Shown piece by piece: positions 2,537-26,841 of a DNA stretch of 28,633 nt (position 1 is its first letter; each line of letters opens with the position of its first letter). The notes beneath the pieces were generated by a model that was given only the letters and a program-made list of their open reading frames with translations, was not told the DNA's origin and searched no databases. This DNA is from a virus: IMG/VR virus record IMGVR_UViG_3300047323_000342, positions 1 to 28,633 of that record, one strand, 5' to 3'. A program made the translations under genes and the position numbers.

Positions 2537-2547
2537 TTAGGAAAACG
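2537..2547 (+). repeat. TTAGGAAAACG element, copy 1
   Basis: TTAGGAAAACG in the divergent gap between hicA and the gene at 2636. It matches the core of the elements upstream of the virion genes. A TGTAAA stretch lies 27-32 bases after its first base. Orientation matches the rightward gene. It may be a promoter element or, here, an operator for the divergent pair. Confidence 0.5.
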
Positions 2548-3276: not shown

Positions 3277-3283
3277 CAACCCC

Positions 3284-3301
3284 GCCCGGTTCGCGCCGGG
3301 C
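3284..3301 (+). repeat. Repeated intergenic hairpin spacer, copy 2
   Basis: GCCCGG-TTCGCG-CCGGGC, identical in stem and loop to copy 1, then TCAACGTAGGGAGCAACC and the ATG at 3320. No U-tract. Confidence 0.75.
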
Positions 3302-3319
3302 TCAACGTAGGGAGCAACC

Positions 3320-3577
3320 ATGCAACAACTTCTGATTGAAACGATGAGCGCGCAAGTCGCGCGCATTGACGGCGTGCTGTCGTTTCGCGCATGGGATGAC
3401 GTTGCCGACGACCTCGGGCCGTGGCATCCGGTCGATTCGTTCGTCATCACGTCGATTGAAGTCACGTTCTCTTATATGAACGATCAGGACTTGGCCGATA
3501 CGCTTTCGGGCAACTCGGTTTGCAACCTGTCCAACGAAACCGCGCTCGCGATTGTGCGCGCCGTGCGCAAGCACTAA
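3320..3577 (+). CDS. Small protein of unknown function (85 aa)
   Basis: 85 residues with ribosome site GTAGGGAG and ATG at 3320. The sequence begins MQQLLIETMSAQVARIDGVLSF, with a central FVITSIEVTFSYMNDQDLAD and the end ALAIVRAVRKH. A compact alpha/beta domain is plausible; no catalytic or metal motif is visible. Not recognised. It is preceded and followed by members of the repeated hairpin spacer family. Confidence 0.68.
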   Translation: MQQLLIETMSAQVARIDGVLSFRAWDDVADDLGPWHPVDSFVITSIEVTFSYMNDQDLADTLSGNSVCNLSNETALAIVRAVRKH

Positions 3578-3583
3578 AACCCT

Positions 3584-3601
3584 GCCCCGTTCGCGCGGGG
3601 C
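3584..3601 (+). repeat. Repeated intergenic hairpin spacer, copy 3, with compensatory change
   Basis: GCCCCG-TTCGCG-CGGGGC. Relative to copies 1 and 2 the fifth stem pair has flipped from G-C to C-G on both arms, keeping the stem intact and the loop identical. ACACCGTAGGGAGCAACC and the ATG at 3620 follow. Confidence 0.75.
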
Positions 3602-3619
3602 ACACCGTAGGGAGCAACC

Positions 3620-3883
3620 ATGCAACGCAACAGTCTTTCCGCCGCCCTCTCGCGCACGTTTGCCGCGCCGCGCGTGCGCGCACCGGACCCGCACCGCCGC
3701 GCCCGCGAGCAGGCCAAGCCGCTCGCCGCGCAACACGGCATCGAGATTGAGCGCGTCGATTCCGGGTTTAACGTATGGCCGCCCGAGGCGTTCGCCGGTG
3801 TGGACCCGTTCGATGGCGACCATTACGCGCAGGACTGGGGCGACGTGCTCGCCCGCGTGAAAGCCTACGCCGACGCACAATAA
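3620..3883 (+). CDS. Small protein of unknown function (87 aa)
   Basis: 87 residues with ribosome site GTAGGGAG and ATG at 3620. The first third is basic and arginine-rich (MQRNSLSAALSRTFAAPRVR, then PDPHRRAREQ), and the rest is acidic (DPFDGDHYAQDWGDVLARVK). There is no membrane segment. Not recognised. It is flanked by spacer hairpins 3 and 4. Confidence 0.65.
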   Translation: MQRNSLSAALSRTFAAPRVRAPDPHRRAREQAKPLAAQHGIEIERVDSGFNVWPPEAFAGVDPFDGDHYAQDWGDVLARVKAYADAQ

Positions 3884-5684: not shown

Positions 5685-5694
5685 CAGGAAAACG
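5685..5694 (+). repeat. CAGGAAAACG element, copy 2 (before portal)
   Basis: CAGGAAAACG starts 2 bases after the stop at 5683 and runs into the long hairpin at 5699-5752. It differs from the other copies by C for T in the first position. It is 63 bases before the portal ATG. Confidence 0.45.
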
Positions 5695-5698
5695 GGCG

Positions 5699-5752
5699 CC
5701 GGTGCGCCCGGTATGTGCGGCGATGATTGACGCTGCACATACCACGCACCGG
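5699..5752 (+). promoter_or_regulatory. Long hairpin abutting the portal start
   Basis: CCGGTGCG - CCC - GGTATGTGC - 16-base loop - GCACATACC - A - CGCACCGG. Two perfect arms (8 and 9 bp) are interrupted by a CCC/A internal loop, giving a 17-bp stem. It ends 4 bases before ATG 5757. There is no T run, so it is not an intrinsic terminator; it covers the region where the portal ribosome site should be. Confidence 0.65.
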
Positions 5753-5756
5753 ACCC

Positions 5757-7457
5757 ATGCAAGAGCAAACATCAACCGAATCGCGCCGATTCAAGGGCTT
5801 TCTCAACAAGCTCTTTGGCGCCAAGGGCGGCGAGGCCAACGCTATCGGATATTCCGAAGCGCAAGACGCCATGACCGATGGCCTGTCCATCTCGATGCTG
5901 CTCGGCACCGGCAAAAAGGGTGCGCGCAATCGAATGCAGTTGTATTTGAAGTACATGGAAATGGTGCAAGACCCGATCATTTCCACTGCACTCCGGTTGC
6001 ACGTCACCGCCGCGCTCGGCGGCCATGAAACGAGCGGCGACGTGGTTTTTATCGAGAAGCGCTCGGATAAGGCCGTTAAGGCCGCCGCCAAAAACAAACC
6101 CAAGGGCAACAAAACCGCCGGCGCATCGGGCGGCGACAAGATCGCGGAAGAAATTGCGCGCGACCTTGGGCCCATTTTCAACCGCATTGCCACGACCGTA
6201 GCGTTTAACGGCGCCTCTATGGGCGACGGTTACGGGCGCATCTACACGGCCGGCAAGCTCGGCGTGGTGGACGTGTACGTTGATGAACTCGTGCATCCGT
6301 CCATGATTACGCCATTCGAGCGCGGCAATCAGACCGTGGGCTTTGTCGCGGCGAGCGGCCAGCGTTCGGTTCAAGAGCTAGGCTTGCACCAAATGGCGCG
6401 CATGAAAATGCCGCGCACGGTGTACGTGCCGCAAGTGCGCGCCGTCGAAAAGGCGATCAAGGTTGCACTCGCCGAGGACGATATCAACAAGCTGCCGCTC
6501 ATGCCCTCGCTTGTCGGCGGCTCGTTTCTCGACGCGGCCGAAGTGCCGTATGACTCGCTGACAACCGCGATGGTTGGCCTCGTGGGCCAGCGCGTGCTCG
6601 ATTCGCTCGATGAGTCGATGCTCACCGTCAACATGGACGGCATGACCAAGGATCAGCGCGACTCTTTCATGGAGAACATGAAAAAGATTCTGCGCTCGAG
6701 CAAGGCGCGCGCAGAGAACGCGATCAAGTCCGGTAAGCCGGTGCTCGAGCGCATCTATCACCTGATTCCGACGTTTGGCGACAAGCAAATGACGGCGATC
6801 AACGGCTCGCTCGCGACCGGCGGCGGCCGTGGCGCATCGGGCACGCTGACTATCGAGGACGTGCTTTTCTACGCCAAGCTGCTCGCGGGAGCGCTCGGCG
6901 TGGACTTGTCCATGCTCGGGTTCTCGGAACTCCTTTCCGGCGGGCTCGGCGATGGCGGGTTTTTCCGCACGTCCGCGCAGGCCGCCGAACGCTCGCGCCT
7001 GATCCGCGTGGGCCTCGCCGAGTTTTTCAATCAGATCATCGACGTACACACGTACATGAAGTACGGCACGGTGTTCGCGCCCGAGGATCGGCCGTGGGAA
7101 GTCAACTTCTACGGCACCATCTCCGCGCTCGAGAGCGAGAAGCAAAAAACCAAGTCGGAAGCGATGAATACGGGCGCCCTGCTCGCTCAGACGCTTGCGC
7201 AGTTGCGCGACTTGGGCCTCTCCGATGAGGCGTTCACCGAGATTCTCGCCAAGATCATGCTGCTCGATGAGGACCAAGCCAAGATCATCGTGGGCGGCAT
7301 CGCGCCGCCGCCTGATCCGAACGCCGAATTCGGCGGCGGCGGGCCCGGTGGTGGCGGCGGGCCGGGCGCCGGCGGCATCATCCCGACGTTAAAGGGTGGC
7401 GCGAACGCGCCCGAAAACGACGACGAGCCCAACCAATTCGAGAACGAGGACGCCTAA
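5757..7457 (+). CDS. Phage portal protein
   Basis: 566 residues from ATG 5757; a TTG at 5727 in the hairpin loop is less likely. Portals form the dodecameric vertex ring through which DNA is packaged. Features consistent with the family: an early helical region (MQLYLKYMEMVQDPIISTAL), a long central stem helix region with AMVGLVGQRVLDSLDESM, the segment DVLFYAKLLAGALGVDLSML (about residues 371-390), then FFRTSAQAAERSRLIRVGLA and AEFFNQIIDVHTYMKYG. The tail is low-complexity Gly/Pro-rich and acidic. The stop overlaps the next start by one base. No ribosome site is obvious; the hairpin just upstream may control expression. The call rests on pattern, size and position at the head of the virion module. 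Confidence 0.78.
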   Translation: MQEQTSTESRRFKGFLNKLFGAKGGEANAIGYSEAQDAMTDGLSISMLLGTGKKGARNRMQLYLKYMEMVQDPIISTALRLHVTAALGGHETSGDVVFIEKRSDKAVKAAAKNKPKGNKTAGASGGDKIAEEIARDLGPIFNRIATTVAFNGASMGDGYGRIYTAGKLGVVDVYVDELVHPSMITPFERGNQTVGFVAASGQRSVQELGLHQMARMKMPRTVYVPQVRAVEKAIKVALAEDDINKLPLMPSLVGGSFLDAAEVPYDSLTTAMVGLVGQRVLDSLDESMLTVNMDGMTKDQRDSFMENMKKILRSSKARAENAIKSGKPVLERIYHLIPTFGDKQMTAINGSLATGGGRGASGTLTIEDVLFYAKLLAGALGVDLSMLGFSELLSGGLGDGGFFRTSAQAAERSRLIRVGLAEFFNQIIDVHTYMKYGTVFAPEDRPWEVNFYGTISALESEKQKTKSEAMNTGALLAQTLAQLRDLGLSDEAFTEILAKIMLLDEDQAKIIVGGIAPPPDPNAEFGGGGPGGGGGPGAGGIIPTLKGGANAPENDDEPNQFENEDA

Positions 7458-10851: not shown

Positions 10852-10862
10852 TTAGGAAAACG
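10852..10862 (+). repeat. TTAGGAAAACG element, copy 3 (before secreted protein)
   Basis: CGATTAGGAAAACG, sharing 14 bases with the copy at 14185-14198. It lies 33 bases after the tape-measure stop. A CATGAT stretch stands 25-30 bases from its first base. Confidence 0.55.
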
Positions 10863-10912
10863 TGATTCGACTTGGCATGATGCACTCCATCGAATTTGAC
10901 GGGGCCAATGTC

Positions 10913-11332
10913 ATGCAAGCGAGGGCGACCGTAGTAGTAGCGGCGGCGGTGCTAGTGGGGGTGATAGTCGCGGGGCCCGCATTCGCAGGGAGAGCGGCGT
11001 TAGACCAAGCGATTGAGGATGCGGTGAAAGACTATCGAAACGGCGGCGCGCAAAAGCTCGAAGAAAGCTCGCGCGTGTGCTATCCGGCGCGAAAAAAGTT
11101 CGTGGACAACGGCGCGCAGGTTGACTACTGCGTGGCGTATGACATTGCCGCGAACAAAATCCTTCAAGTCGAAGGGGAACATTTGCCGGATTACTTTGAG
11201 GGACTGCCGATGTCGGTTCGGCAGACGGGCGAAGCGGAAGCGGCGGGCCTGTTCGTTGGGCCCGATGGCCTCGTGAGCTACATGCGCTCGAGGATCGAAT
11301 ATGTGCAACCGCGTGTGAAAAAGAGGCTGTAA
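10913..11332 (+). CDS. Secreted (periplasmic) protein, moron-like
   Basis: 139 residues from ATG 10913. A classic signal peptide is visible: MQARATVVVAAAVLVGVIVA followed by GPAFA|G, cleavage after about residue 25. The mature part has two cysteines (RVCYPARKKF and QVDYCVAYDI) that could form a disulfide, and ends YVQPRVKKRL. Upstream in-frame starts (GTG 10862, ATG 10877) would put a charged extension before the signal and are less likely. It is bounded by a TTAGGAAAACG element and a strong terminator, an isolated transcription unit inside the tail operon, as morons are. A possible role is envelope modification or superinfection exclusion during lysogeny; this is inference. Confidence 0.72.
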   Translation: MQARATVVVAAAVLVGVIVAGPAFAGRAALDQAIEDAVKDYRNGGAQKLEESSRVCYPARKKFVDNGAQVDYCVAYDIAANKILQVEGEHLPDYFEGLPMSVRQTGEAEAAGLFVGPDGLVSYMRSRIEYVQPRVKKRL

Positions 11333-11355
11333 AGCCCCTCACGAAGCCCAAATGA

Positions 11356-11379
11356 AGCCCGCCATAGAGCGGGCTTTTT
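11356..11379 (+). terminator. Rho-independent terminator after the secreted protein
   Basis: AGCCCGC - CATAGA - GCGGGCT then TTTT: a 7-bp perfect stem with a T run, 23 bases after the stop. It isolates the secreted-protein gene from the tail tube unit whose element begins 15 bases later. Confidence 0.85.
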
Positions 11380-11393
11380 CGCGTGCGCGTTCG

Positions 11394-11446
11394 CTAGGAA
11401 AACGCACGCCTGACACCGGCAATGTCGCACTGAGAATTCAAGGGCG
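11394..11446 (+). promoter_or_regulatory. Extended TAGGAAAACG element, copy 4 (tail tube)
   Basis: CTAGGAAAACGCACGCCT opens the element, and at fixed spacing CACTGAGAATTCAAGG follows. It aligns without gaps over about 53 bases to those at 14703 and 24228 (first 18 bases identical to 14703). It starts just after a terminator and 79 bases before the tail tube ATG, so it must hold that unit's promoter. A CTGAGAAT / ATTCTCTCAG imperfect hairpin follows in the leader. Confidence 0.65.
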
Positions 11447-11472
11447 TTCCTTATTCTCTCAGGTGACAAGCC

Positions 11473-11961
11473 ATGACCGTATCCATCGGTTCGTTTCTCC
11501 AACAGTCCTACGCCCAATTCAAGGCGACCGGCGACAAGTCCGTAGCGAGCGATGCGATGTTCGTCATCAATGGCTACGAAGGCTTGCGCATGTTGTGCAA
11601 GCAGTTCCCGCAACCGATCCTCTCGCCGGCCGGCGAAATTGCCATTGCTACCCCAATGGGCGGCGAGGCATTCCAACCGCAACAGTTGAAAGTCAACAAC
11701 CAAGGCCAAGTCTCGTTTTACGAGACGGTGGAAGGCCATATGGAGGCTTTCATCGAGTCGATCATCGGCGTGGGCGCGGTGTTCAACGCGACCGTGTACG
11801 AGGGCACGCTCGAGAAGTACAAGCGCGGTTGGCAGATCAAAGACTGCTTTTTCCAGTTCGACAACCCGGATCGTGACTGGGAAAACCGCTCGCAAGTGAC
11901 GATGGTGAGCGGCACGCTGTTTTTCCATTACTTCGGCGAAAAGATTCCCGGCAACTACTAA
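11473..11961 (+). CDS. Tail tube protein (probable)
   Basis: 162 residues, with ribosome site AGGTGACAAGCC before ATG 11473. Beta-rich with a central helix: VSFYETVEGHMEAFIESIIG, then YKRGWQIKDCFFQFDNPDRD, ending VTMVSGTLFFHYFGEKIPGN. Size and the final strand pattern fit contractile-phage tail tube subunits, which form the hexameric inner tube. Supporting context: it has its own extended promoter-like element, shared only with the capsid and beta-helix genes, implying high expression, and hub and spike genes follow. Structure comparison would settle it. Confidence 0.6.
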   Translation: MTVSIGSFLQQSYAQFKATGDKSVASDAMFVINGYEGLRMLCKQFPQPILSPAGEIAIATPMGGEAFQPQQLKVNNQGQVSFYETVEGHMEAFIESIIGVGAVFNATVYEGTLEKYKRGWQIKDCFFQFDNPDRDWENRSQVTMVSGTLFFHYFGEKIPGNY

Positions 11962-11970
11962 GGCGCTGCC

Positions 11971-12471
11971 GTGAAACTGTCCGAACTCGCCTATCAAGTT
12001 GAATGGCCGCATGGGCTCGTTATCGATGACGCCGATATCGAGATTCAGGCCATGAACGCCGCGCGTCACTACCTCGGTTGGGGCGTGATCCGCGCCCTGC
12101 TCCCTGTCGCGCCCGCGCCAAGCGTGCCCGACGGGCGCCCGGTGTATTCCGGGCTCGATGGTGACGCGATTATCGGTTGGTATGGCGGGATTTATGGCGG
12201 CACGCCGGCAAGCTGCCCGGCGCCCGTCGATCCGGGCCCGCCCTTGCCGCTCACGTTCGACACGGACCTCACCGACGGCGAATGGGCACTGATCCGCCCG
12301 CTCTACATGCTCTACATCGAAAAGGTCAACGCCGTGGCGCTCGAGGCATCGCGCACGCTCGGCGTTGAGGTGTACGGGCGCGCGGTGAGCGAGATTCAGC
12401 AAGATATCGAGCGCGAGGAAAAAGAGCACATGCCGCGCATGGCGTTCTCGTGCGACGTGGTGACTATCTGA
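11971..12471 (+). CDS. Virion-associated protein, possible neck or tail component
   Basis: 166 residues from GTG 11971, 9 bases after the tube stop, with weak ribosome site AAGG. The N-terminus MKLSELAYQVEWPHGLVIDD is followed by a Gly/Pro-rich loop region (GGIYGGTPASCPAPVDPGPP). The C-terminal half is helical: LTDGEWALIRPLYMLYIEKV then RAVSEIQQDIEREEKEHMPR, ending FSCDVVTI. This C-terminal pattern recurs in small proteins of head-tail genes in contractile phages, as I recall. Function not established. The stop shares a base with the next start. Confidence 0.6.
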   Translation: MKLSELAYQVEWPHGLVIDDADIEIQAMNAARHYLGWGVIRALLPVAPAPSVPDGRPVYSGLDGDAIIGWYGGIYGGTPASCPAPVDPGPPLPLTFDTDLTDGEWALIRPLYMLYIEKVNAVALEASRTLGVEVYGRAVSEIQQDIEREEKEHMPRMAFSCDVVTI

Positions 12472-12698
12472 TGGCGTTCGATAAAGCCCGCGCGCAATCG
12501 ATGATCGAGCAAGTGCGCGCCAATCTCGGCAAGCTCGATCAGTGCCCGGATCACCAATTCGAGCGCGAGAGCGAGGACGTGCTCACCTCGCATTGGCGGT
12601 GCGCGCTGTGCGGCGGCTCGATCACCGGCATGGCCTATCGCTGGTACATGCGCGGGCGCGCGCACGGCGCCGAGCACGGCGCGGGAGAGCCCGCGTGA
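12471..12698 (+). CDS. Small zinc-finger-like protein (75 aa)
   Basis: 75 residues, ATG overlapping the preceding TGA. Cys25 and His28 (QCPDHQF) with Cys44 and Cys47 (CALCGG) make a plausible C-x2-H / C-x2-C zinc site. The N-terminal 20 residues are a helix (ARAQSMIEQVRANLGKL). It is followed by a GTGA overlap with the hub gene. Its place inside the tail operon suggests a small assembly or regulatory factor; nothing more can be said. Confidence 0.65.
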   Translation: MAFDKARAQSMIEQVRANLGKLDQCPDHQFERESEDVLTSHWRCALCGGSITGMAYRWYMRGRAHGAEHGAGEPA

Positions 12699-13573
12699 TC
12701 CAAGTGAACGATATGCGCGGCGATATGGTTCTGAGCGCGACATTGCGCTCAGACCTCGCGCCTATCCCGCTCACGTTTGAGGGGCAAATCCGCGTCACGC
12801 AACAGACCGGCGCGGACTTCAAAGACGGCCGCCCGATCACGGTGAACGGCGTGCCCTTTCGCATCGTCAAGGCTATCCCGATCCAGAACGCCGGCGGCGG
12901 TGCGCAGGGCCGCGAGCCGCTTACGGCCGTGGACGTGACCGCGTTTCCCGACGGGCTCGAGAAGCTCGCGCAACCGCGCACGGCGGCGGTGATTTTTCAG
13001 AACGCGAAGCTCGGCGGCATCTATCGCGCGTGCGGCGCCACGGTGCCCGTTGAGGGCGATTTCACCGCGAGCGCCTTTGCGTGTTTCATCGGCTCGATTC
13101 CGACGTTCCACATCGCGCGCGTGCTGCAAGAGGAAGGCGCAACCGCGATGTGGCGCAAAGGCGGAATCAAGCTCATGCGACTGCGCGAGGTGATGGCGCA
13201 AACGCCGGTGGATTCCATCGATACGGCCTCGAGCGAGGGCGTGAAAAGCGACACGCTCACCGCCGAACAGATTCCGGTGTATTGGAGCATCGGGCCCGAC
13301 GGCAACGTAATCAGCGCGCCGCGCACCGACGCCGCGCAGGGCGTGGCCTATGTGCCGCGCAAAAGCGCAACCGCGCTCGGGTTCATGGGCCGCGTGCTCG
13401 TGCGCCGGCGAACCATGACGGGAAAGGTAAATCCGTCGATTCGCGCGGGTGACATGGTGACTGTCGCGGGCGTGCCGCACGTCGTTATGACCGTCGTGCA
13501 ACACACGCAGAACGGCGGCGACGGCGGCGGCATCGCGCAGTACACGCGCCTCTTTCTCGGGACGCTCTCGTGA
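12695..13573 (+). CDS. Baseplate hub-like tail protein
   Basis: 292 residues from GTG 12695, with ribosome site GGGAGAGCCC. Predominantly beta: MVLSATLRSDLAPIPLTFEG near the start and GRVLVRRRTMTGKVNPSIRA near residue 230, then GDMVTVAGVPHVVMTVVQHT. This resembles hub proteins of contractile tails (gp27/gpD type), which carry the spike and join it to the tube. The next gene, overlapping by 4 bases, encodes the spike, matching the usual hub-spike order. Assigned mainly on pattern and neighbour. Confidence 0.55.
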   Translation: MIQVNDMRGDMVLSATLRSDLAPIPLTFEGQIRVTQQTGADFKDGRPITVNGVPFRIVKAIPIQNAGGGAQGREPLTAVDVTAFPDGLEKLAQPRTAAVIFQNAKLGGIYRACGATVPVEGDFTASAFACFIGSIPTFHIARVLQEEGATAMWRKGGIKLMRLREVMAQTPVDSIDTASSEGVKSDTLTAEQIPVYWSIGPDGNVISAPRTDAAQGVAYVPRKSATALGFMGRVLVRRRTMTGKVNPSIRAGDMVTVAGVPHVVMTVVQHTQNGGDGGGIAQYTRLFLGTLS

Positions 13574-14178
13574 TCGGCCTCATGCCCGCGTTTATCGACA
13601 CCGTATCGATTGATGACCGAGGCGCGCGCCTGTATCGCGTTCGCATTCCGGGCTTGACCGATAACGGGACCGAGCAACCCATTGCGCAACTGTGCAACCC
13701 GATTGGCGACAAGAGCGAGCACACCGAGATTCGCATCAAGCCCGGTGATCGCGTTTGGCTCGCATTCGAGAACGGCGACACGCGCTATCCGGTGATCGTC
13801 GGATTCCGTCCTAAGAACGTCGGCAATGCGATGGACTGGCGGCGCTTTGAGCACGCCAATTTCGAGTTCAACGCGGACAACACATTCCAGATCATCGCGG
13901 GCACGCAAGTCCACGTCAAAACGCCGCTTGCACTGATCGAAGCGGACAACTCGCACATCACCGGTGACGTGCAGATAGACGGCACTTGCACGGTTGAAAA
14001 GCTGCTCACGTTCAACGGCGGCATGAACGGCCGTGCGGGCGCGAGCGGCGGCCCGGCAATGGTGGTGAGCGGCGGCGCGGCGTTCTCCGATGACGTGGTT
14101 GCCGGCGGAATAAGTCAGACCGGACACACGCACACCGAGCAAGGCGACGGCGCCAATGTGAGCCCGCCACATATGTAA
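13570..14178 (+). CDS. Membrane-piercing tail spike (gpV/gp5 type)
   Basis: 202 residues from GTG 13570 (GTGA overlap with the hub gene). Residues about 7-80 look like the OB-fold at the top of contractile-tail spikes (GARLYRVRIPGLTDNGTEQP, then KPGDRVWLAFENGDTRYPVI). From about 90 the sequence becomes repetitive beta-helix (FEFNADNTFQIIAGTQVHVK, then ITGDVQIDGTCTVEKLLTFN). The tip carries GHTHTEQGDG with His186-x-His188, the HxH motif that binds iron in P2/Mu-type spike tips. The trimer pierces the outer membrane during infection. No lysozyme domain is inserted; that function is in the tape-measure-like protein. Confidence 0.8.
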   Translation: MIGLMPAFIDTVSIDDRGARLYRVRIPGLTDNGTEQPIAQLCNPIGDKSEHTEIRIKPGDRVWLAFENGDTRYPVIVGFRPKNVGNAMDWRRFEHANFEFNADNTFQIIAGTQVHVKTPLALIEADNSHITGDVQIDGTCTVEKLLTFNGGMNGRAGASGGPAMVVSGGAAFSDDVVAGGISQTGHTHTEQGDGANVSPPHM

Positions 14179-14187
14179 GCGAACCGA

Positions 14188-14198
14188 TTAGGAAAACG
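14188..14198 (+). repeat. TTAGGAAAACG element, copy 5 (doubles as ribosome site)
   Basis: CGATTAGGAAAACGCA directly before ATG 14201. AGGA lies 7 bases from the start codon, so this copy acts as a ribosome site whatever else it does. It lacks the second conserved block. Confidence 0.55.
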
Positions 14199-14200
14199 CA

Positions 14201-14686
14201 ATGAAAAACCTGATTTTCGATATTTACAACCTCTCGCACAAAGACAAGTCCATTGCCGCCGCCAAGCGAGCATTCGCGCGCGCGGGCGTGGAGGTGACAA
14301 GCGTTGATGTGGACGCGAAAACGAAAAAGACGCTCGGCATCGAATACCGGGAAGTGCAATTCGGGTTTGCCGATTCGCAAAGCGTGCGCTTTGGCGTGAA
14401 CGCCTCGGGCGACGTGGCGCAGGTAAAGATCAACGGAAAAGTGATTCCGCTGAAAAATCCCGACGATCACGGCAAGGCGATTGCCGAGATTGTCGCGGCG
14501 CTCAACAAGGGCCGCGCGAAGTTTCAGGCCGCGATGGCGAAAGTAAAGATGGCCCTGCCGCCGAGCGTTCGCACGGCGGCGCCCAAGCTCGAGCAAGTGT
14601 GGCGCGAAAAGGTGACGGCGCTCGATGAGGCTATTGAAAGCGCGACCGAAAAACTCAACGGACTCAAGGCTCAACTCGCCGCTTAA
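14201..14686 (+). CDS. Head-region protein, possibly DarA_N-like
   Basis: 161 residues from ATG 14201. Residues about 50-105 contain VQFGFADSQSVRFGVNASGD, then VAQVKINGKVIPLKNPDDHG and KAIAEIVAAL. This recalls, from memory only, the N-terminal part of P1 DarA-related head-packaged proteins (DarA_N). The C-terminal 60 residues are helical and charged (LEQVWREKVTALDEAIESAT, ending KLNGLKAQLAA). Its place between the spike and the major capsid gene suggests an internal head, scaffold or decoration protein. A capsid-borne anti-restriction factor is one possibility; function is uncertain. Confidence 0.55.
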   Translation: MKNLIFDIYNLSHKDKSIAAAKRAFARAGVEVTSVDVDAKTKKTLGIEYREVQFGFADSQSVRFGVNASGDVAQVKINGKVIPLKNPDDHGKAIAEIVAALNKGRAKFQAAMAKVKMALPPSVRTAAPKLEQVWREKVTALDEAIESATEKLNGLKAQLAA

Positions 14687-14702
14687 CGACCATTTTTAGC
14701 GG

Positions 14703-14755
14703 CTAGGAAAACGCACGCCTAGCCACTCAAAAGTGCCGTTGAGAATGAAGGCTCA
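14703..14755 (+). promoter_or_regulatory. Extended TAGGAAAACG element, copy 6 (major capsid)
   Basis: CTAGGAAAACGCACGCCTAG opens the element, followed at fixed spacing by AAAGTGCCGTTGAGAATGAAGGCTCA (in two parts: AAAGTGCCGTTGA, GAATGAAGGCTCA). It aligns ungapped with the element at 24228. A small CACT/AGTG hairpin is possible inside. It starts 16 bases after the previous stop and 110 bases before the capsid ATG. Confidence 0.7.
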
Positions 14756-14762
14756 AAGGATT

Positions 14763-14778
14763 GCACGGAGTTCCGTGC
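14763..14778 (+). other. Leader hairpin ahead of the major capsid gene
   Basis: GCACGG-AGTT-CCGTGC, in the untranslated leader between the extended element and ATG 14813. A matching ACGGA-ATC-TCCG hairpin occupies the same place in the leader of the beta-helix gene. It is probably an mRNA-stabilising structure. Confidence 0.55.
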
Positions 14779-14812
14779 ATGGTTTTGAAACTCTTATCTT
14801 GATAGGTAAAAC

Positions 14813-16450
14813 ATGAACGGAACTCAAAACAAGTTCACTCCCCGCGATATGGCGGAAGTGGAAAAATTTGTCGGCGGCGTGATGGACGGCCAAGGCGCGT
14901 CCGCTGCTGGCGTGATGCTCGATTCGACGGCCGCAGCAACGGCCGCCGGCGACGCGCTCAAGAATCAGTCGGGTATGCGCCCGGCCGTGATCGATGAATT
15001 GCTTGGCGTCTCCACGATGGAAGAAGCCGAGGTGCTGAAGTCGATTTTCGACGGCGTGAACGCCTATGAGCGTGAGCACGGTTTCAAGCCGTCGGGCGAC
15101 GTGATCCTGTCCGCAATCGCGCAGGGCAAGGACATTTTCGACTCGGCGACCAACTCGCACCACGATCAAATTTCGCTCACGCCGAATGCGCCTGTCGTGG
15201 CGATTCTCTCGGCGATGGCCGAAGCAACGCCGTTCGCGGGCTATTTGCCGGCTGACCGTGGATCGAACGAAGCGCGCTTGATTATCGTGTCGCACCAAGC
15301 CGGTTCCGACTGGGGCGAATACTCGCAGTCGCAACTGATGGACGGCATCAAGCAGGGCGGCGCGTATCTCGGTTCGACGCGCACGCTGGAACTCGCCGCG
15401 CCCAACGACACGGACGCCTACAAGTTCGTGTACACCACGCAAGTCGCGGCGGGCGCTCCGATCAAGCTGCTGCGTGGCCGCACGATTGTCTACGTGAACG
15501 GCATGATCGCGGCACAGGAAATTTCGAACGGCTCGAGCACCTCGGCGAGCGTTCCGATTGCCGGCACCATCAACCTCGGCGGCACGGACTACGCGCTGGC
15601 GGGCACGATCAAGCCGGGCGCGGGCGAAGTGTCGGTCACGCCGACGCCGGCATTCCCGGCGGGCACCGTCGTTTCGTCCGAAGCGTTTTTCGACTACGAA
15701 GCGGACCCGGACAAGACGCCGCGTATGCAGGTTCAGGCGCAGGTGTACTCGATGTTCGCCTCGCCCTTCCGTGGCATCTATCAGGTGACGCCGGAAAGCC
15801 GTTCGCAGTTCGCGAACGAGGTTGGCGTGGACGCCGGCGCCGAGGCCATGATGGCGGTTCGCGGTCAGTTCGCAATGGAGCGTCATTACAACGCTCTGCG
15901 CAAGGCCAAGATGATCGCGAAGTTCGCGAACAACCGCACGTATGACTTCGATTACGCGCTCCAGATTCAGCAAAAGATTCGCGCGCAAATCTGGCAGGAC
16001 TTCGCCTCGGTTGTCGGCCTCGCTTCGCAGCAAATGGCAGAGGACACGGCGGATCACGGCGTTACGCACATGTACGTCACGAAGTCGGTTGCGGCGCAGT
16101 TCCGCTCGATGGATCGCACGCTGTTCGAACCGTCGGGCATCGTGGACCGGCCGGGCATTTTCCGTGTAGGCCGTCTGTTCGGCATGTACGAGGTGTACTA
16201 CTCGCCGGCCGTCGTCACGGAAAGCGCGGACGGCACGACCGCCGAAATTCTGCTGGTCGGCCGCTCCACGCAAACGGCACGCTGCCCGATCATTTTCGGC
16301 GACGCGCAAGCACCGATGTTCGAACCGCTCGGCACGACCGAAGCCCTGAAGTCGGGCTACGGCTTCACCGCGCGCTGCTTCAACGCGGTGAACCCGCACC
16401 AAATGTCGGCGAAGGGTTGCGCGCTCATCACGGTGACGAACCTCAAGTAA
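14813..16450 (+). CDS. Major capsid protein
   Basis: 545 residues, with ribosome site ATAGGTAAAAC before ATG 14813. The first ~110 residues are helical and charged (TPRDMAEVEKFVGGVMDGQG), as expected of a scaffold-like delta domain. The main body is a large alpha/beta shell domain with an insertion rich in Gly/Ser/Thr (residues about 225-290, NGSSTSASVPIAGTINLGGT) and a late segment YNALRKAKMIAKFANNRTYD. Size is close to that of the P1 major capsid protein. Codon use here is visibly more uniform (GGC, CTG/CTC, GCG, AAC) and the promoter-leader block is one of three extended copies, both signs of very high expression. It should form the HK97-fold icosahedral head. Identified by size, context and expression signals rather than a hallmark motif. 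Confidence 0.75.
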   Translation: MNGTQNKFTPRDMAEVEKFVGGVMDGQGASAAGVMLDSTAAATAAGDALKNQSGMRPAVIDELLGVSTMEEAEVLKSIFDGVNAYEREHGFKPSGDVILSAIAQGKDIFDSATNSHHDQISLTPNAPVVAILSAMAEATPFAGYLPADRGSNEARLIIVSHQAGSDWGEYSQSQLMDGIKQGGAYLGSTRTLELAAPNDTDAYKFVYTTQVAAGAPIKLLRGRTIVYVNGMIAAQEISNGSSTSASVPIAGTINLGGTDYALAGTIKPGAGEVSVTPTPAFPAGTVVSSEAFFDYEADPDKTPRMQVQAQVYSMFASPFRGIYQVTPESRSQFANEVGVDAGAEAMMAVRGQFAMERHYNALRKAKMIAKFANNRTYDFDYALQIQQKIRAQIWQDFASVVGLASQQMAEDTADHGVTHMYVTKSVAAQFRSMDRTLFEPSGIVDRPGIFRVGRLFGMYEVYYSPAVVTESADGTTAEILLVGRSTQTARCPIIFGDAQAPMFEPLGTTEALKSGYGFTARCFNAVNPHQMSAKGCALITVTNLK

Positions 16451-20119: not shown

Positions 20120-20886
20120 TTAACTTCGCTCCACTTCGCACCGCGCGGCTCGATGTGCGGTTGCGTGAACTCGGCATCGGCAACGAGCTATCGCTCTGTC
20201 ACATGCCGCTCACCGCGCACGAAAAGACGCTCACCGAGTTCCTCAACTTCGTGCTCGCTGATGCGAACGCGCCCACGCCGCGCCACTTGACCGATCCGCG
20301 CGCGTGGAGCGTGAGCGAGCGCTTTCTCGTGCTCGCGCATTACAACCTGCATGTGCGCGACGACGCGCCCGATTGGGCCGTGACGGAGACGAGCAAGCTC
20401 TCGGACTATCTCGATCCGGCGCTCGAGCCGGGTGCCGCGAAGCCCTTTCAGGCCGCCCGCGATACCTGGACTTTGCGCCCGCTCTCGGGCGCGATGGCCG
20501 AAGCGCTCGAGACGTTGCAACTGGAAAGCACGCTCGTAGGCTTGGAGCATTGGGTGATTGGTGCGATGGCCTGTCAACTGTTGCGCGAGGGCGAGGAAAG
20601 CCCGGATGCGGCGCTGGAAACGGCCGATTTTCACGCGTGGCTCGCCAAGCGCATGACGGTGCTCAAGGAATATCCGAGTTCGGATTTCGATGCGCTGTTC
20701 GTAGGCTATCGCGTGGCGCTCGCGCAGAGCACGCAGTATTTCACGCTCTGGTTCGATGACGAGGGCGTGATCGTGCTGCCGAAAACCTCGGATACGGAGG
20801 CCGCCGCGCTGTTGCCGGCGGCGCGATTTCTCGCCGATTCCGCTCTCGGCAGAGTGGCGCTCAGTCTCTCAGGAAAATCTGAGTGA
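20116..20886 (+). CDS. Possible tail assembly chaperone
   Basis: 256 residues from ATG 20116 (ATGA overlap). It is mostly helical: LRTARLDVRLRELGIGNELS, then LTAHEKTLTEFLNFVLADAN, SVSERFLVLAHYNLHVRDDA and DALFVGYRVALAQSTQYFTL. Members of this style occur in tail operons as assembly factors with an N-terminal domain of 200-260 residues, from memory. An open frame in the +1/-2 phase overlaps the end and continues for 73 codons to 21103, recalling the frameshifted extensions of tail assembly chaperones. Against this, the tape-measure gene is far upstream rather than next door. Function is tentative. Confidence 0.5.
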   Translation: MINFAPLRTARLDVRLRELGIGNELSLCHMPLTAHEKTLTEFLNFVLADANAPTPRHLTDPRAWSVSERFLVLAHYNLHVRDDAPDWAVTETSKLSDYLDPALEPGAAKPFQAARDTWTLRPLSGAMAEALETLQLESTLVGLEHWVIGAMACQLLREGEESPDAALETADFHAWLAKRMTVLKEYPSSDFDALFVGYRVALAQSTQYFTLWFDDEGVIVLPKTSDTEAAALLPAARFLADSALGRVALSLSGKSE

Positions 20887-24200: not shown

Positions 24201-24227
24201 GCGAGGCGCGCAAACGATTCCCGCGAG

Positions 24228-24280
24228 TTAGGAAAAAGCACCGTCGGCACTCCTAAAGTGCCGCTGAAACTGAAGGCTCA
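24228..24280 (+). promoter_or_regulatory. Extended TAGGAAAA element, copy 7 (beta-helix gene)
   Basis: TTAGGAAAAAGCACCG opens the element, then GGCACT-CCTAA-AGTGCC forms a 6-bp hairpin, then GCTGAAACTGAAGGCTCA. It aligns ungapped with the element at 14703 over 53 bases; the GTGCCG and TGAAGGCTCA blocks are at identical spacing. It starts 27 bases after the previous stop and 117 bases before ATG 24345. Confidence 0.7.
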
Positions 24281-24317
24281 TTGGTTAGACGGAATCTCCG
24301 CTGACCTTTGAGCCTTC
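24272..24317 (+). other. Leader stem ahead of the beta-helix gene
   Basis: GAAGGCTCA (24272-24280) pairs perfectly with TGAGCCTTC (24309-24317). An inner ACGGA-ATC-TCCG hairpin lies between them. The outer stem is followed by TCTTTTT, so it could act as an attenuator as well as a stabilising leader. Confidence 0.6.
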
Positions 24318-24344
24318 TCTTTTTCCTACTTCAAGGGCAATACA

Positions 24345-25262
24345 ATGGATTGGCAACTTGCTTCGGATTTCGGCACGATCAACGGCTTTGGCGTGGACAA
24401 CCGCGCGGCCCTGCAAGACGCACTCAACTCGACGGCGGCGCTTGGCCGTGGTCTTATCATCGACGGTCAGTACGGCCTGCAATTCGATAGCTCGCACGCG
24501 GAACTCGTCGTGCCGTCGAATTCGAACATCAAGTTTCAGCCGGGCGCGGCGCTGAAGCTGCTGCCGCACGACCTGAAGGCGTACAACGTCTTTTTGATCG
24601 ACGGCGTTTCGAACGTCGTCATCGAGCGCCCGCTTATCGACGGCGCGAAGGAACTGAACGCCGATCCGGGCACATTCGAGTCGGAATACGGCATGGGCAT
24701 CGGCCTGTACGATGCAACGAACGTCACGATCATCGACCCGGATATCCGCAATACGTGGGGTGACGGCATCTACATCGGCGGCGGCGCGAAGTGCCAGAAC
24801 ATCAACATTCACAATCCAGTCATCGGCGGCTGCCGTCGCAACGGTATGTCGATTGTGACCGTCGATGGCCTGAAAGTCTGGAGCCCGCTCATCAAGCGGA
24901 TCAACGACACGAACCCGAAGGCCGGTATTGACTTCGAACCCAACAACAACGACTGCGAACTGAAGAACATTTTCATCTATTCGCCGCGCACGGTGAACTG
25001 CAATCTCGGCATCGAGTTCTACATGGACAACTTCCCGGGTCCGAAGCCGAAGGTTGTGTCGATCAGCGTGCTCGATTTCAAGTCGATCAACGACGGCGAT
25101 ACGTCGCTGTTCTTCGGCGACTTGCAGAAGGGCACGAACTCGGTTTCGGGCACGATCAACGTGCATAACGTGCGCTACGTGAAGCCGAACATCGCCAAGG
25201 GCATCCAGAACTGGGACAACTCGATTGTTATGTCCGTGACGGGCGAAACCACGATCAGCTAA
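24345..25262 (+). CDS. Right-handed beta-helix protein, probable tail spike or decoration
   Basis: 305 residues from ATG 24345, with a weak site AGGGCAATACA. The N-terminus (DWQLASDFGTINGFGVDNRA, then ALQDALNSTAALGRGLIIDG) resembles the start of pectate-lyase-like phage tailspikes. Repeating strands follow: VSNVVIERPLIDGAK, ATNVTIIDPDIRNTWGDGIY, CQNINIHNPVIGG and LKVWSPLIKRIND, a clear parallel beta-helix. There is no separate receptor or catalytic signature. It has its own capsid-type promoter element, leader and terminator, and sits apart from the tail operon, implying high and independent expression. A host-binding spike, depolymerase or head decoration are the options; spike is favoured. 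Codon use is as uniform as in the capsid gene. Confidence 0.7.
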   Translation: MDWQLASDFGTINGFGVDNRAALQDALNSTAALGRGLIIDGQYGLQFDSSHAELVVPSNSNIKFQPGAALKLLPHDLKAYNVFLIDGVSNVVIERPLIDGAKELNADPGTFESEYGMGIGLYDATNVTIIDPDIRNTWGDGIYIGGGAKCQNINIHNPVIGGCRRNGMSIVTVDGLKVWSPLIKRINDTNPKAGIDFEPNNNDCELKNIFIYSPRTVNCNLGIEFYMDNFPGPKPKVVSISVLDFKSINDGDTSLFFGDLQKGTNSVSGTINVHNVRYVKPNIAKGIQNWDNSIVMSVTGETTIS

Positions 25263-25288: not shown

Positions 25289-25323
25289 AAACCCGGTTCG
25301 TTATGCGCGAACCGGGTTTTTTT
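25289..25323 (+). terminator. Strong terminator after the beta-helix gene
   Basis: AAACCCGGTTCG - TTATGCG - CGAACCGGGTTT, with seven T in all. The 12-bp perfect stem ends at the stop codon of the convergent rep gene. It closes the virion/lysis region and protects the replication module from read-through. Confidence 0.9.
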
Positions 25324-26518
25324 ATGCGCTCGCGCGCTCAAAGGCTCGATAGCCCGTCACATGCGCGGGCTTGTTCCACTTACCCGTTTCCTCATTGAAG
25401 CTCGCGCCCGGATGCGCGGCGATATAGGCGGCGCGAAGTTCCGCGCGGCGCTCATCGGTGAGGCTCGCCGAGGCTTTGCGCGCCTCGTTCGATTGCTTGT
25501 CTTTCGCGACCTCATCGGGCTTGTTGTGTGGCAATGGTGCGGCCTGCTGTTGCTTGCGATCCGGTACCGGCGCGCGATCACGGAAAAGCGTGAAGGCGAG
25601 GCCGCCCGGGTTATCAACGCCGGGCCGTTTGACGTGCGCGGCAAGGTTGAGCGCGTATTGCTCGCCCATAAGCTCGATCACGCTCGTTGCCAACTTGCCG
25701 TCGAAGCCTATGCCTTGCAGGGCTTTGTAGCCCTCGGTTTCCCTGATTCCGTCCGACTCGGGGCTCTCATGCAGGAAAGAGGTTTGCGGGTTCTCGGATA
25801 CCTCGAATCGGATGCGCTCTACTTTGCGCCCTACCTTTTCCTCGTGCAGCGTGACGAAAATGTTTGATACGCGATTCACCTCGGCGACCGCCGGCACGAG
25901 CACCTTGGACTTGAAAACCTTGTAGCTGTCGTATGTGGACGGAAGCGCGTTCCTGTCTTTGTCGTATTTGATGGTCCCGAGCAAGCGCCGCCACTTCTCG
26001 ACGCCGTGAAAGCCGGTGGAGCCCGTTTTGAGGTACCGCGCGCAATTCTCGTAGAGCGAGAGCGAGTGCGTGCGCTCAAATTGGCGCTGCACGTTCATGT
26101 TGATGACGCCGAATATCTCAGGATCGGCGAGTTTGCGCTGTAGCTCGGGCGCGTATGCGTACTTGCACACACCGTTCTTGAGAACGGCTTGCGCGAGCAG
26201 CGTCATTGCACCCCAGTCAATCGAGGCGTCCTCATCATCGTCCATGAGATTGAACTCAATCGGCGCAACAACGATGTTCTTAAGCGCCTTCTTGAGCGCG
26301 GGCGAATTATTGCTTGCATCCCAACCCAACATCGCGCAGAGGGCAGTTTGCGAGATAAAGAACTCGCGCGCGCTCTCATCGGGAATTTTCTCGAATGCGT
26401 TGAGCAACAGAATGTTCACGAGTTTGCGCTCGGTAACGGTTAGATCACCGCCCGCGTGGATCGTGGACACATGTTTTTTTAGGGACTTCTGTTTGGCGAC
26501 CTTGGGTGCTTGAGGCAT
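25322..26518 (-). CDS. Plasmid replication initiator, Rep_3 family
   Basis: 398 residues from ATG 26518, chosen because AAAGGAG lies 7 bases upstream; the frame is open further back without a ribosome site. Rep_3 pattern: two winged-helix domains. The first covers about 30-165 (VTERKLVNILLLNAFEKIPD, then FFISQTALCAMLGWDASNNS and SLSLYENCARYL); the second covers about 170-270 (GVEKWRRLLGTIKYDKDRNA, then YKVFKSKVLVPAVAEVNRVS and KVERIRFEVSENPQ). The C-terminus (from about 330) is Lys/Gln-rich and probably flexible. The protein binds the iterons next to its own start, recruits host DnaA/DnaB and usually represses itself. It converges on the virion module, so prophage replication is plasmid-like. 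Confidence 0.88.
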   Translation of the reverse strand: MPQAPKVAKQKSLKKHVSTIHAGGDLTVTERKLVNILLLNAFEKIPDESAREFFISQTALCAMLGWDASNNSPALKKALKNIVVAPIEFNLMDDDEDASIDWGAMTLLAQAVLKNGVCKYAYAPELQRKLADPEIFGVINMNVQRQFERTHSLSLYENCARYLKTGSTGFHGVEKWRRLLGTIKYDKDRNALPSTYDSYKVFKSKVLVPAVAEVNRVSNIFVTLHEEKVGRKVERIRFEVSENPQTSFLHESPESDGIRETEGYKALQGIGFDGKLATSVIELMGEQYALNLAAHVKRPGVDNPGGLAFTLFRDRAPVPDRKQQQAAPLPHNKPDEVAKDKQSNEARKASASLTDERRAELRAAYIAAHPGASFNEETGKWNKPAHVTGYRAFERASA

Positions 26519-26600
26519 GGCAATCTCCTTTGCGCCTCGATCATGCCCGCGTAGGTAACTTTTCGCAAGTACCTTTTTATACCCTAGGATATCTACCATA

Positions 26601-26833
26601 CTCCCCTATCCGGGTACCTTTCCGCTCGCCGCCCGAATTCTGCTCCCCTAAAAGGGTACCGTTCATAGCATTATTGGCACTTGATTATCCTTTGGAATCA
26701 ATGGGTTAAGCGTGTTTTTCGTGGGGCCTATGAGTGCTCCCCTATCCGGGTACCTGTTCCCCTATCCGGGTACCTTTCGCGCTCGTTTTGCTCCCCGATC
26801 CGGGTACCGTTGCTCCCCGATGAGGGTACCTTA
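26601..26833 (+). repeat. Iteron array, probable origin of replication
   Basis: Six direct repeats of about 18-22 bp with consensus GCTCCCCtATCCGGGTACC. Positions: 26601-26620, 26642-26663 (ATCC replaced by AAAA), 26736-26758, 26756-26777, 26790-26811 and 26812-26833. The last four form a near-continuous block and the first two lie between it and rep. The gap at 26664-26735 is AT-rich (CATAGCATTATTGGCACTTG) and suits strand opening. No exact DnaA box was found; TTATCCTTT at about 26688 is a poor match. This is the typical Rep_3 origin layout. The repeats should bind the Rep protein at 25322. Confidence 0.88.
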
Positions 26834-26841
26834 TCGGCCGC

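Follow-up and report, generated by a model that had tools for sequence, protein, structure and literature searches.

Recurring GGAAAA elements as predicted activator-dependent late promoters in a large group of P1-like phages

The 28,633-nt sequence of the IMG/VR virus record IMGVR_UViG_3300047323_000342 (positions 1 to 28,633; referred to as the window, the whole stretch of DNA that was analysed) was recognized by its protein content as a 28.6-kb fragment of a P1-like phage. The window encodes homologues of the P1-type proteins Ulx, portal, tail tube, Hdf, major capsid, tail sheath and PmgG as well as a replication-initiator-like protein, the gene of which is located on the minus strand (25322-26599). 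A megablast search of the phage collection yielded no close DNA relatives of the window. At the protein level, the nearest annotated relative is plasmid pBVIE05 of Burkholderia vietnamiensis G4, with a capsid protein of 64.5% identity, and a tblastn comparison of the P1 capsid protein gp23 with that of the window gave an identity of approximately 23%. The subject of this analysis is a short sequence element with the core GGAAAA, termed the box, that recurs in front of several genes of the window.

The element reads TAGGAAAACG or TAGGAAAAAG at positions 2538, 10853, 11395, 14189, 14704 and 24229 and CAGGAAAACG at position 5685. The exact motif YAGGAAAACG is present at 2538, 5685 (with C as the first base), 10853, 11395, 14189 and 14704, and copy 24229 has the sequence TAGGAAAAAG. 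When one mismatch was allowed, ten matches were detected in the window compared with 3.1 +/- 1.8 in shuffled sequences, and this number was reached by none of 100 shuffles. A match at position 20872 that passes the promoter scan lies inside a coding sequence and was rejected; its equivalents in relatives occupy the corresponding coding position, and their conservation looks driven by the protein. A preliminary description of the window had regarded the seven copies as a dedicated family of late promoters or leaders, each lying in an intergenic gap of the plus strand. All copies do exist on this strand, at coordinates that are mostly one base higher than those given before, and the intergenic placement applies in general but not to copies 10853 and 14189, which reach into the start region of the following gene (GTG at 10862 and ATG at 14201, respectively). 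The gapless similarity of copies 11395, 14704 and 24229 was reproduced, with values of 73% and 62% over 45 bases. The second block of similarity noticed in these copies is likewise real, but it contains the conserved -10 hexamers GAGAAT (11432-11437), GAGAAT (14741-14746) and GAAACT (24266-24271), which replace the sequences TAAAGT, AAAAGT and CAATGT at a distance of 27-32 bases that had been proposed for this role. Of the seven copies, four conform to the promoter layout deduced below, whereas copies 2538 and 14189, and copy 10853 in this form, do not.

The motif search in relatives, suggested in the same description, revealed that the box and its spacing are conserved before the capsid and tail-tube genes. 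Judged from this comparison, the recurring TAGGAAAA is the predicted upstream half of a conserved late promoter that P1-like phages share across Burkholderia and many other proteobacteria. The layout consists of GGAAAA, about 29 unconserved bases and a -10 hexamer (GAGAAT, TACAGT or similar) that starts 35 nt after the first G of the box, which is itself flanked by AAYY on its left side and by C/G-rich sequence on its right side. It is kept before the capsid and tail-tube genes of more than 50 non-redundant relatives, the proteins of which range from 100% to approximately 40% identity, and the distance from the first G to the start of the -10 hexamer is 34 or 35 nt in 57 of 60 non-redundant capsid regions and in 51 of 52 tail-tube regions. 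The same 35-nt spacing was observed in diverged relatives of the Pseudomonas type and others, in which the box reads GGAAAG (W03, CP018759.1; G007; G026) or GGAAAC/GCAAAC (W05).

Since the non-redundant set had been selected by the presence of the box, two independent tests were added, one counting words and the other scanning offsets. In the unbiased test of 6-mers, GGAAAA ranked first both upstream of capsid genes (58 of 69 sequences, with 9.9 expected) and upstream of tail-tube genes (51 of 58, with 7.0 expected). The offset scan was based on nine Burkholderia-group phages, in which 69 of the 71 occurrences of TAGGAAAA are located on the late strand and two on the other strand. Examination of the offsets 8 to 59 after the 69 late-strand copies showed that a NANWNT hexamer is present at offset exactly 35 in 47 cases, compared with about 1.6 expected from the mean of the other offsets (binomial P ~1e-59, before allowing for relatedness). 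In the control, opposite-strand GGAAAA sequences were accompanied by a -10-type hexamer at this offset in 3 of 158 cases. The P values overstate the evidence because the sequences are related, and the recurrence of A at position 2 and T at position 6 of the hexamer at this constant offset has to be read with the hexamer type being the search criterion. With respect to coding sequences, pBVIE05 provided a further control, as five of its six TAGGAAAA copies are completely intergenic in a sequence that is 90.5% coding, and the sixth shares three bases with the end of a gene; the motif is thus not spread at the same rate through the coding part of this relative.

A -35 element was not detected in these promoters: matches to TTGACA at 16-18 bp from the -10 hexamer were no better than in shuffled sequences, and the information content reached at most 0.38 bit, in one column. 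The earlier statement that no standard -35 sequence is present and that a phage activator is probable is well supported by the comparative evidence. T-rich columns at offsets of about 23-25 in the capsid promoters were considered as an inverted half-site and discarded, being absent from the tail-tube promoters. Because the -35 columns are nearly uninformative and upstream terminators force transcription to start at this place, the upstream box appears to substitute for the -35 element. Taken together, the elements are almost certainly late promoters with the layout described here.

Three sites of the window fully fit this predicted layout. The putative tail-tube promoter (11397-11437, plus strand; copy 11395) comprises GGAAAA at 11397-11402 and the GAGAAT hexamer at offset 35, with a predicted transcription start at about 11444, and it precedes the tail tube gene (11473-11961; phrog_1120, E value 5e-44). 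As had been pointed out before, this copy directly follows a terminator-like hairpin with a T run at 11355-11379 of the plus strand (AAGCCCGC-CATAGA-GCGGGCTTTTT). Terminators were found at the equivalent place in the relatives L010, L011, L012, L013, L014 and L022, and since they commonly stand directly upstream of tail-tube promoters, transcription must start after them. The putative promoter of the major capsid gene (14706-14746; copy 14704) contains GGAAAA at 14706-14711, has a predicted start at about 14753 and lies upstream of the P1 gp23-like gene at 14813-16450 (phrog_1014; tblastn match to P1 gp23). The third site (24231-24271; copy 24229), with GGAAAA at 24231-24236 and a predicted start at about 24278, is followed by the beta-helix gene (24345-25262). 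All these features are on the plus strand. Copy 5685 is probably the promoter of the portal gene (ATG at 5757), with GGAAAA at 5687-5692 and the weak -10 hexamer GATGAT at 5722-5727 (complete site 5687-5727, plus strand); the portal genes of two relatives, G002 (AACAAT at offset 35) and G004 (CAAAAT), show the same layout.

The remaining copies differ from this pattern. The plus-strand site 10853-10881 combines TAGGAAAACG with the extended -10-like sequence TGG-CATGAT at offset 21 instead of 35 and overlaps the GTG codon of the open reading frame 10862-11332. The corresponding junction of four relatives (W01 54003, G005 9630, G003 4023 and G012 73267) likewise carries TGG and then a -10-like hexamer at offset 20-21; across the five phages the hexamer reads CATGAT, CACACT, CATACT or CAAACT, and the gene behind it is small and of unknown function. 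This second spacing class is therefore conserved in five phages, and owing to this recurrent geometry copy 10853 may represent a site related to, but distinct from, the promoters above. The copy at 14189 (14189-14203, plus strand) is the ribosome-binding site TAGGAAAACG of the Hdf-like gene; it was rejected as a member of the promoter family, as a -10 hexamer is missing at offsets 34-36 and the box is absent before hdf in most relatives (L010, L011, L012, L014 and L022). Membership of copy 2538 (2538-2547, plus strand) is unsupported for the same lack of a -10 hexamer at these offsets.

A strict scan of the relatives yielded 3-12 late-strand hits per genome, and more were obtained with a weight matrix. 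Strict hits precede genes encoding capsid, tube, portal, PmgG-like, DarA-like, DarB-like and tail-fibre proteins, a gene set that is approximately the same as that served by the late promoters of P1. The layout would accordingly drive expression of the capsid, tail tube, portal, fibre, head and DarA/DarB-like genes. In the relative G002 (L034; positions 23974, 26414, 28643 and 31397), four successive genes with similar protein starts each possess their own strong predicted late promoter, and the first of these genes is orthologous to a tail-fibre gene of pBVIE05. Additionally, the sequence TAGGAAAAC overlaps the terL stop codon in W01 (20961), G005 (68288), G011 (57243) and G012 (39152) and serves the next gene as a ribosome-binding site; GATAAT, GACAAT or AATAAT follows at offset 35-36 inside that gene and may reflect either coding or a promoter.

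The search for a phage activator gene, also proposed in the preliminary description, was performed in the relatives and identified a candidate. An XRE-type helix-turn-helix protein of approximately 200-250 residues is encoded in 35 of 36 records, coliphage P1 being the sole exception, whereas the P1 activator Lpa (PF25716) was detected in P1 alone and in none of the 35 other records. In 37 of 40 relatives, the XRE-type gene is located immediately upstream of the gene for the terminase small subunit, terS, on the same strand. The window does not contain the terminase region, so that the helix-turn-helix gene of this very phage was not seen. Among the proteins conserved in seven whole genomes, the XRE-type protein contains the sole evident DNA-binding domain besides RdgC. 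A match to HTH_31 was above the cut-off for the proteins of Rb1 and Ideonella and below it for the pBVIE05 protein, and profile comparison of the candidate matched ImmR (7t8i) and the 434 repressor. A structure model of moderate confidence (mean pLDDT, predicted local distance difference test, of 71.5) gave XRE folds in a Foldseek search (best E value 0.006), with a helix-turn-helix resembling those of the 434 repressor and ClgR. The recognition helix moreover changes along with the last base of the box: it reads GY.[NS][SP][ST] throughout the 28 genomes that have GGAAAA boxes (CY in one of them), GHENAT, KHENAT or GQKQCS in the three GGAAAG genomes G007, G026 and W03, and AHEGVT in W05 with its boxes GGAAAC or GCAAAC.

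These data suggest that the phage-encoded XRE-type protein binds to the box late in infection and would recruit the host sigma-70 RNA polymerase, presumably by contacting region 4 of sigma from just upstream of the -35 position in the manner of lambda CI at PRM. The centre of the box would lie about 45 bp ahead of the predicted start, transcription would begin about 12 nt downstream of the first base of a sigma-70-type -10 hexamer (NANAAT or TACAGT), and a -35 hexamer would not be used. We regard it as probable that the element represents the activator-binding half of late promoters in a large group of P1-like phages, with the XRE-type protein as its reader. That the box is read by a phage protein is likely on its own account, and that this reader is the helix-turn-helix protein, acting as an activator, is a rather probable assignment. 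Several points weigh against this interpretation. The window is a fragment that lacks the helix-turn-helix gene, the picture of promoter and activator is drawn from sequence data, the spacing test examined only -10-type hexamers in sequences that share descent, and the co-variation of helix and box comes from some three or four lineages. The box lacks the palindromic symmetry usual for the site of a dimeric XRE protein, members of this family are more often repressors, and the closeness of the gene to the terminase genes could reflect another role.

A less likely, although serious, alternative is that the reader of the same promoter family is a factor of the host or a different phage protein, with the helix-turn-helix protein regulating something else. 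The assignment of the protein to the box is indirect, the hosts of box-carrying phages are proteobacteria throughout, and host factors can take part in such a process, because late transcription of P1 requires the host protein SspA. The joint change of box variant and recognition helix, the position of the helix-turn-helix family as the only evident DNA-binding proteins besides RdgC in the seven whole genomes, and the complementary distribution of this family and Lpa argue for the phage-encoded XRE-type reader instead. It is improbable that this protein acts at the box as a repressor that silences the late promoters in the plasmid prophage. The common role of XRE-type proteins and the structural neighbours of the candidate, which are the repressors of 434, lambda and P22, would suit such a function, but the location of the box, upstream of the -35 position, is that of an activator, and promoters without a -35 element should need help rather than blocking. 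Separate CI-like repressor genes are furthermore annotated in pBVIE05 and Rb1.

RNA folding was considered with respect to a structured leader, either a riboswitch or an element of translational control, of which TAGGAAAACG would form the 5' strand. The region 24225-24347 folds with -54.7 kcal/mol (z-score -7.6) with the box paired, and copy 14704 reached a z-score of -4.4. The leader of the beta-helix gene contains a long inverted repeat (24272-24328, plus strand; GAAGGCTCA...TGAGCCTTC) that is followed by CTTTTTCCTA, a T run complementary to the box; this very stable hairpin, which occurs in this copy alone, is terminator- or attenuator-like. The capsid mRNA leader carries the conserved hairpin TGCACGG-AGTT-CCGTGCA (14762-14779, plus strand), the stem of which varies across 16 relatives while the loop region GGTTCC is kept; changes on both sides were found in four of seven pairs, and the covariation score was reached by none of 500 shuffles. 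This hairpin is a conserved element of the 5' untranslated region, perhaps for mRNA stability or translational control. However, only in copy 24229 does the box pair with the leader over a long range, a scan against Rfam gave chance hits only, the bases from the box to the -10 hexamer are unconserved, and the upstream terminators imply that transcription starts here, which makes a leader function of the box very improbable. Chance recurrence of a Shine-Dalgarno sequence (AGGA) before genes applies to copy 14189 and possibly to part of copy 10853, but it can practically be dismissed for the family, as the main copies are located 70-114 bases upstream of the start codon and keep the fixed 35-nt spacing to the -10 hexamer, by which this reading was refuted for copies 11395, 14704 and 24229.

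Apart from the late promoters, the window contains five imperfect repeats around CTCCCCTATCCGGGTACC at 26601-26841, directly upstream of the replication-initiator-like gene, that are likely iterons of a plasmid origin. Two leaders of 49 nt with 90% identity (3278-3326 and 3578-3626), each located before one of two successive small genes, comprise the hairpin CCCGCCCGGTTCGCGCCGGGC, a ribosome-binding site and the sequence ATGCAAC, and a third copy of the hairpin is present at 2950-2972. Among the relatives, a P1-like phage of betaproteobacterial type (L074, JAMPER010000001.1) was found in a contig labelled as a metagenome-assembled genome of Alistipes senegalensis; this label may be wrong.

Late control is known for P1, and no account of it was found in open-access papers for the larger set of P1-like phage-plasmids of Burkholderia, Pseudomonas, Xanthomonas, Nitrosomonas and their relatives; a survey of open-access text on the promoters, their carriers and the motif likewise yielded nothing that describes the element. 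The promoter rule annotates 3-12 late promoters per genome by sequence alone and names a testable activator, and the paired changes of helix and box make its specificity directly testable.

The proposed arrangement resembles that of lambda CI at PRM and of CII, in which a helix-turn-helix activator is placed beside the -35 position of a sigma-70 promoter, as would be the case here. It differs by the lack of an operator repeat and by serving a dispersed late regulon instead of lysogeny genes. With the Ogr/Delta proteins of P2 and the C protein of Mu it shares a phage-coded activator and sites upstream of weak late promoters. Ogr is a zinc finger protein and Mu C has the Mor/C fold, both recognizing palindromic sites; the candidate activator showed no match to the Ogr/Delta or Mor/C families.

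In P1, Lpa acts at eleven late promoters that contain a 9-bp inverted repeat (PMC10695390). The analogy to these promoters, drawn in the preliminary description, holds for the regulatory logic, the target genes and the position of the activator gene, but not for homology. The P1 site is the 9-bp palindrome AAGTNACTT located 4 nt before the -10 hexamer, whereas the asymmetric GGAAAA precedes it by 29 nt; the palindrome, which would be expected around -22, is absent, the respective columns containing at most 0.13 bit in 108 promoters. A Lpa homologue was not found here, its place being taken by an unrelated XRE-type protein (hhalign probability of 0.6% for the candidate versus Lpa). Both systems use several dispersed promoters per genome with a -10 but no -35 element, they control the same late genes (capsid, tail tube/sit, fibres and head), and lpa precedes pacA-pacB as the XRE-type gene precedes the terminase genes, a likeness of position and not of homology. 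It appears moderately probable that the whole late programme of beta- and gammaproteobacterial P1-like phages is under control of an XRE-family activator that reads GGAAA(A/G/C) at about -45 in promoters without a -35 element, occupies the genomic slot of the unrelated Lpa and has co-evolved with the box through its recognition helix. Since the XRE-type activator lies in this slot and is unrelated to Lpa, the master late switch would have been swapped wholesale together with all its promoters, which, if true, represents a natural example of the exchange of a master regulator along with its entire set of sites, the target genes and the position of the activator gene remaining unchanged.

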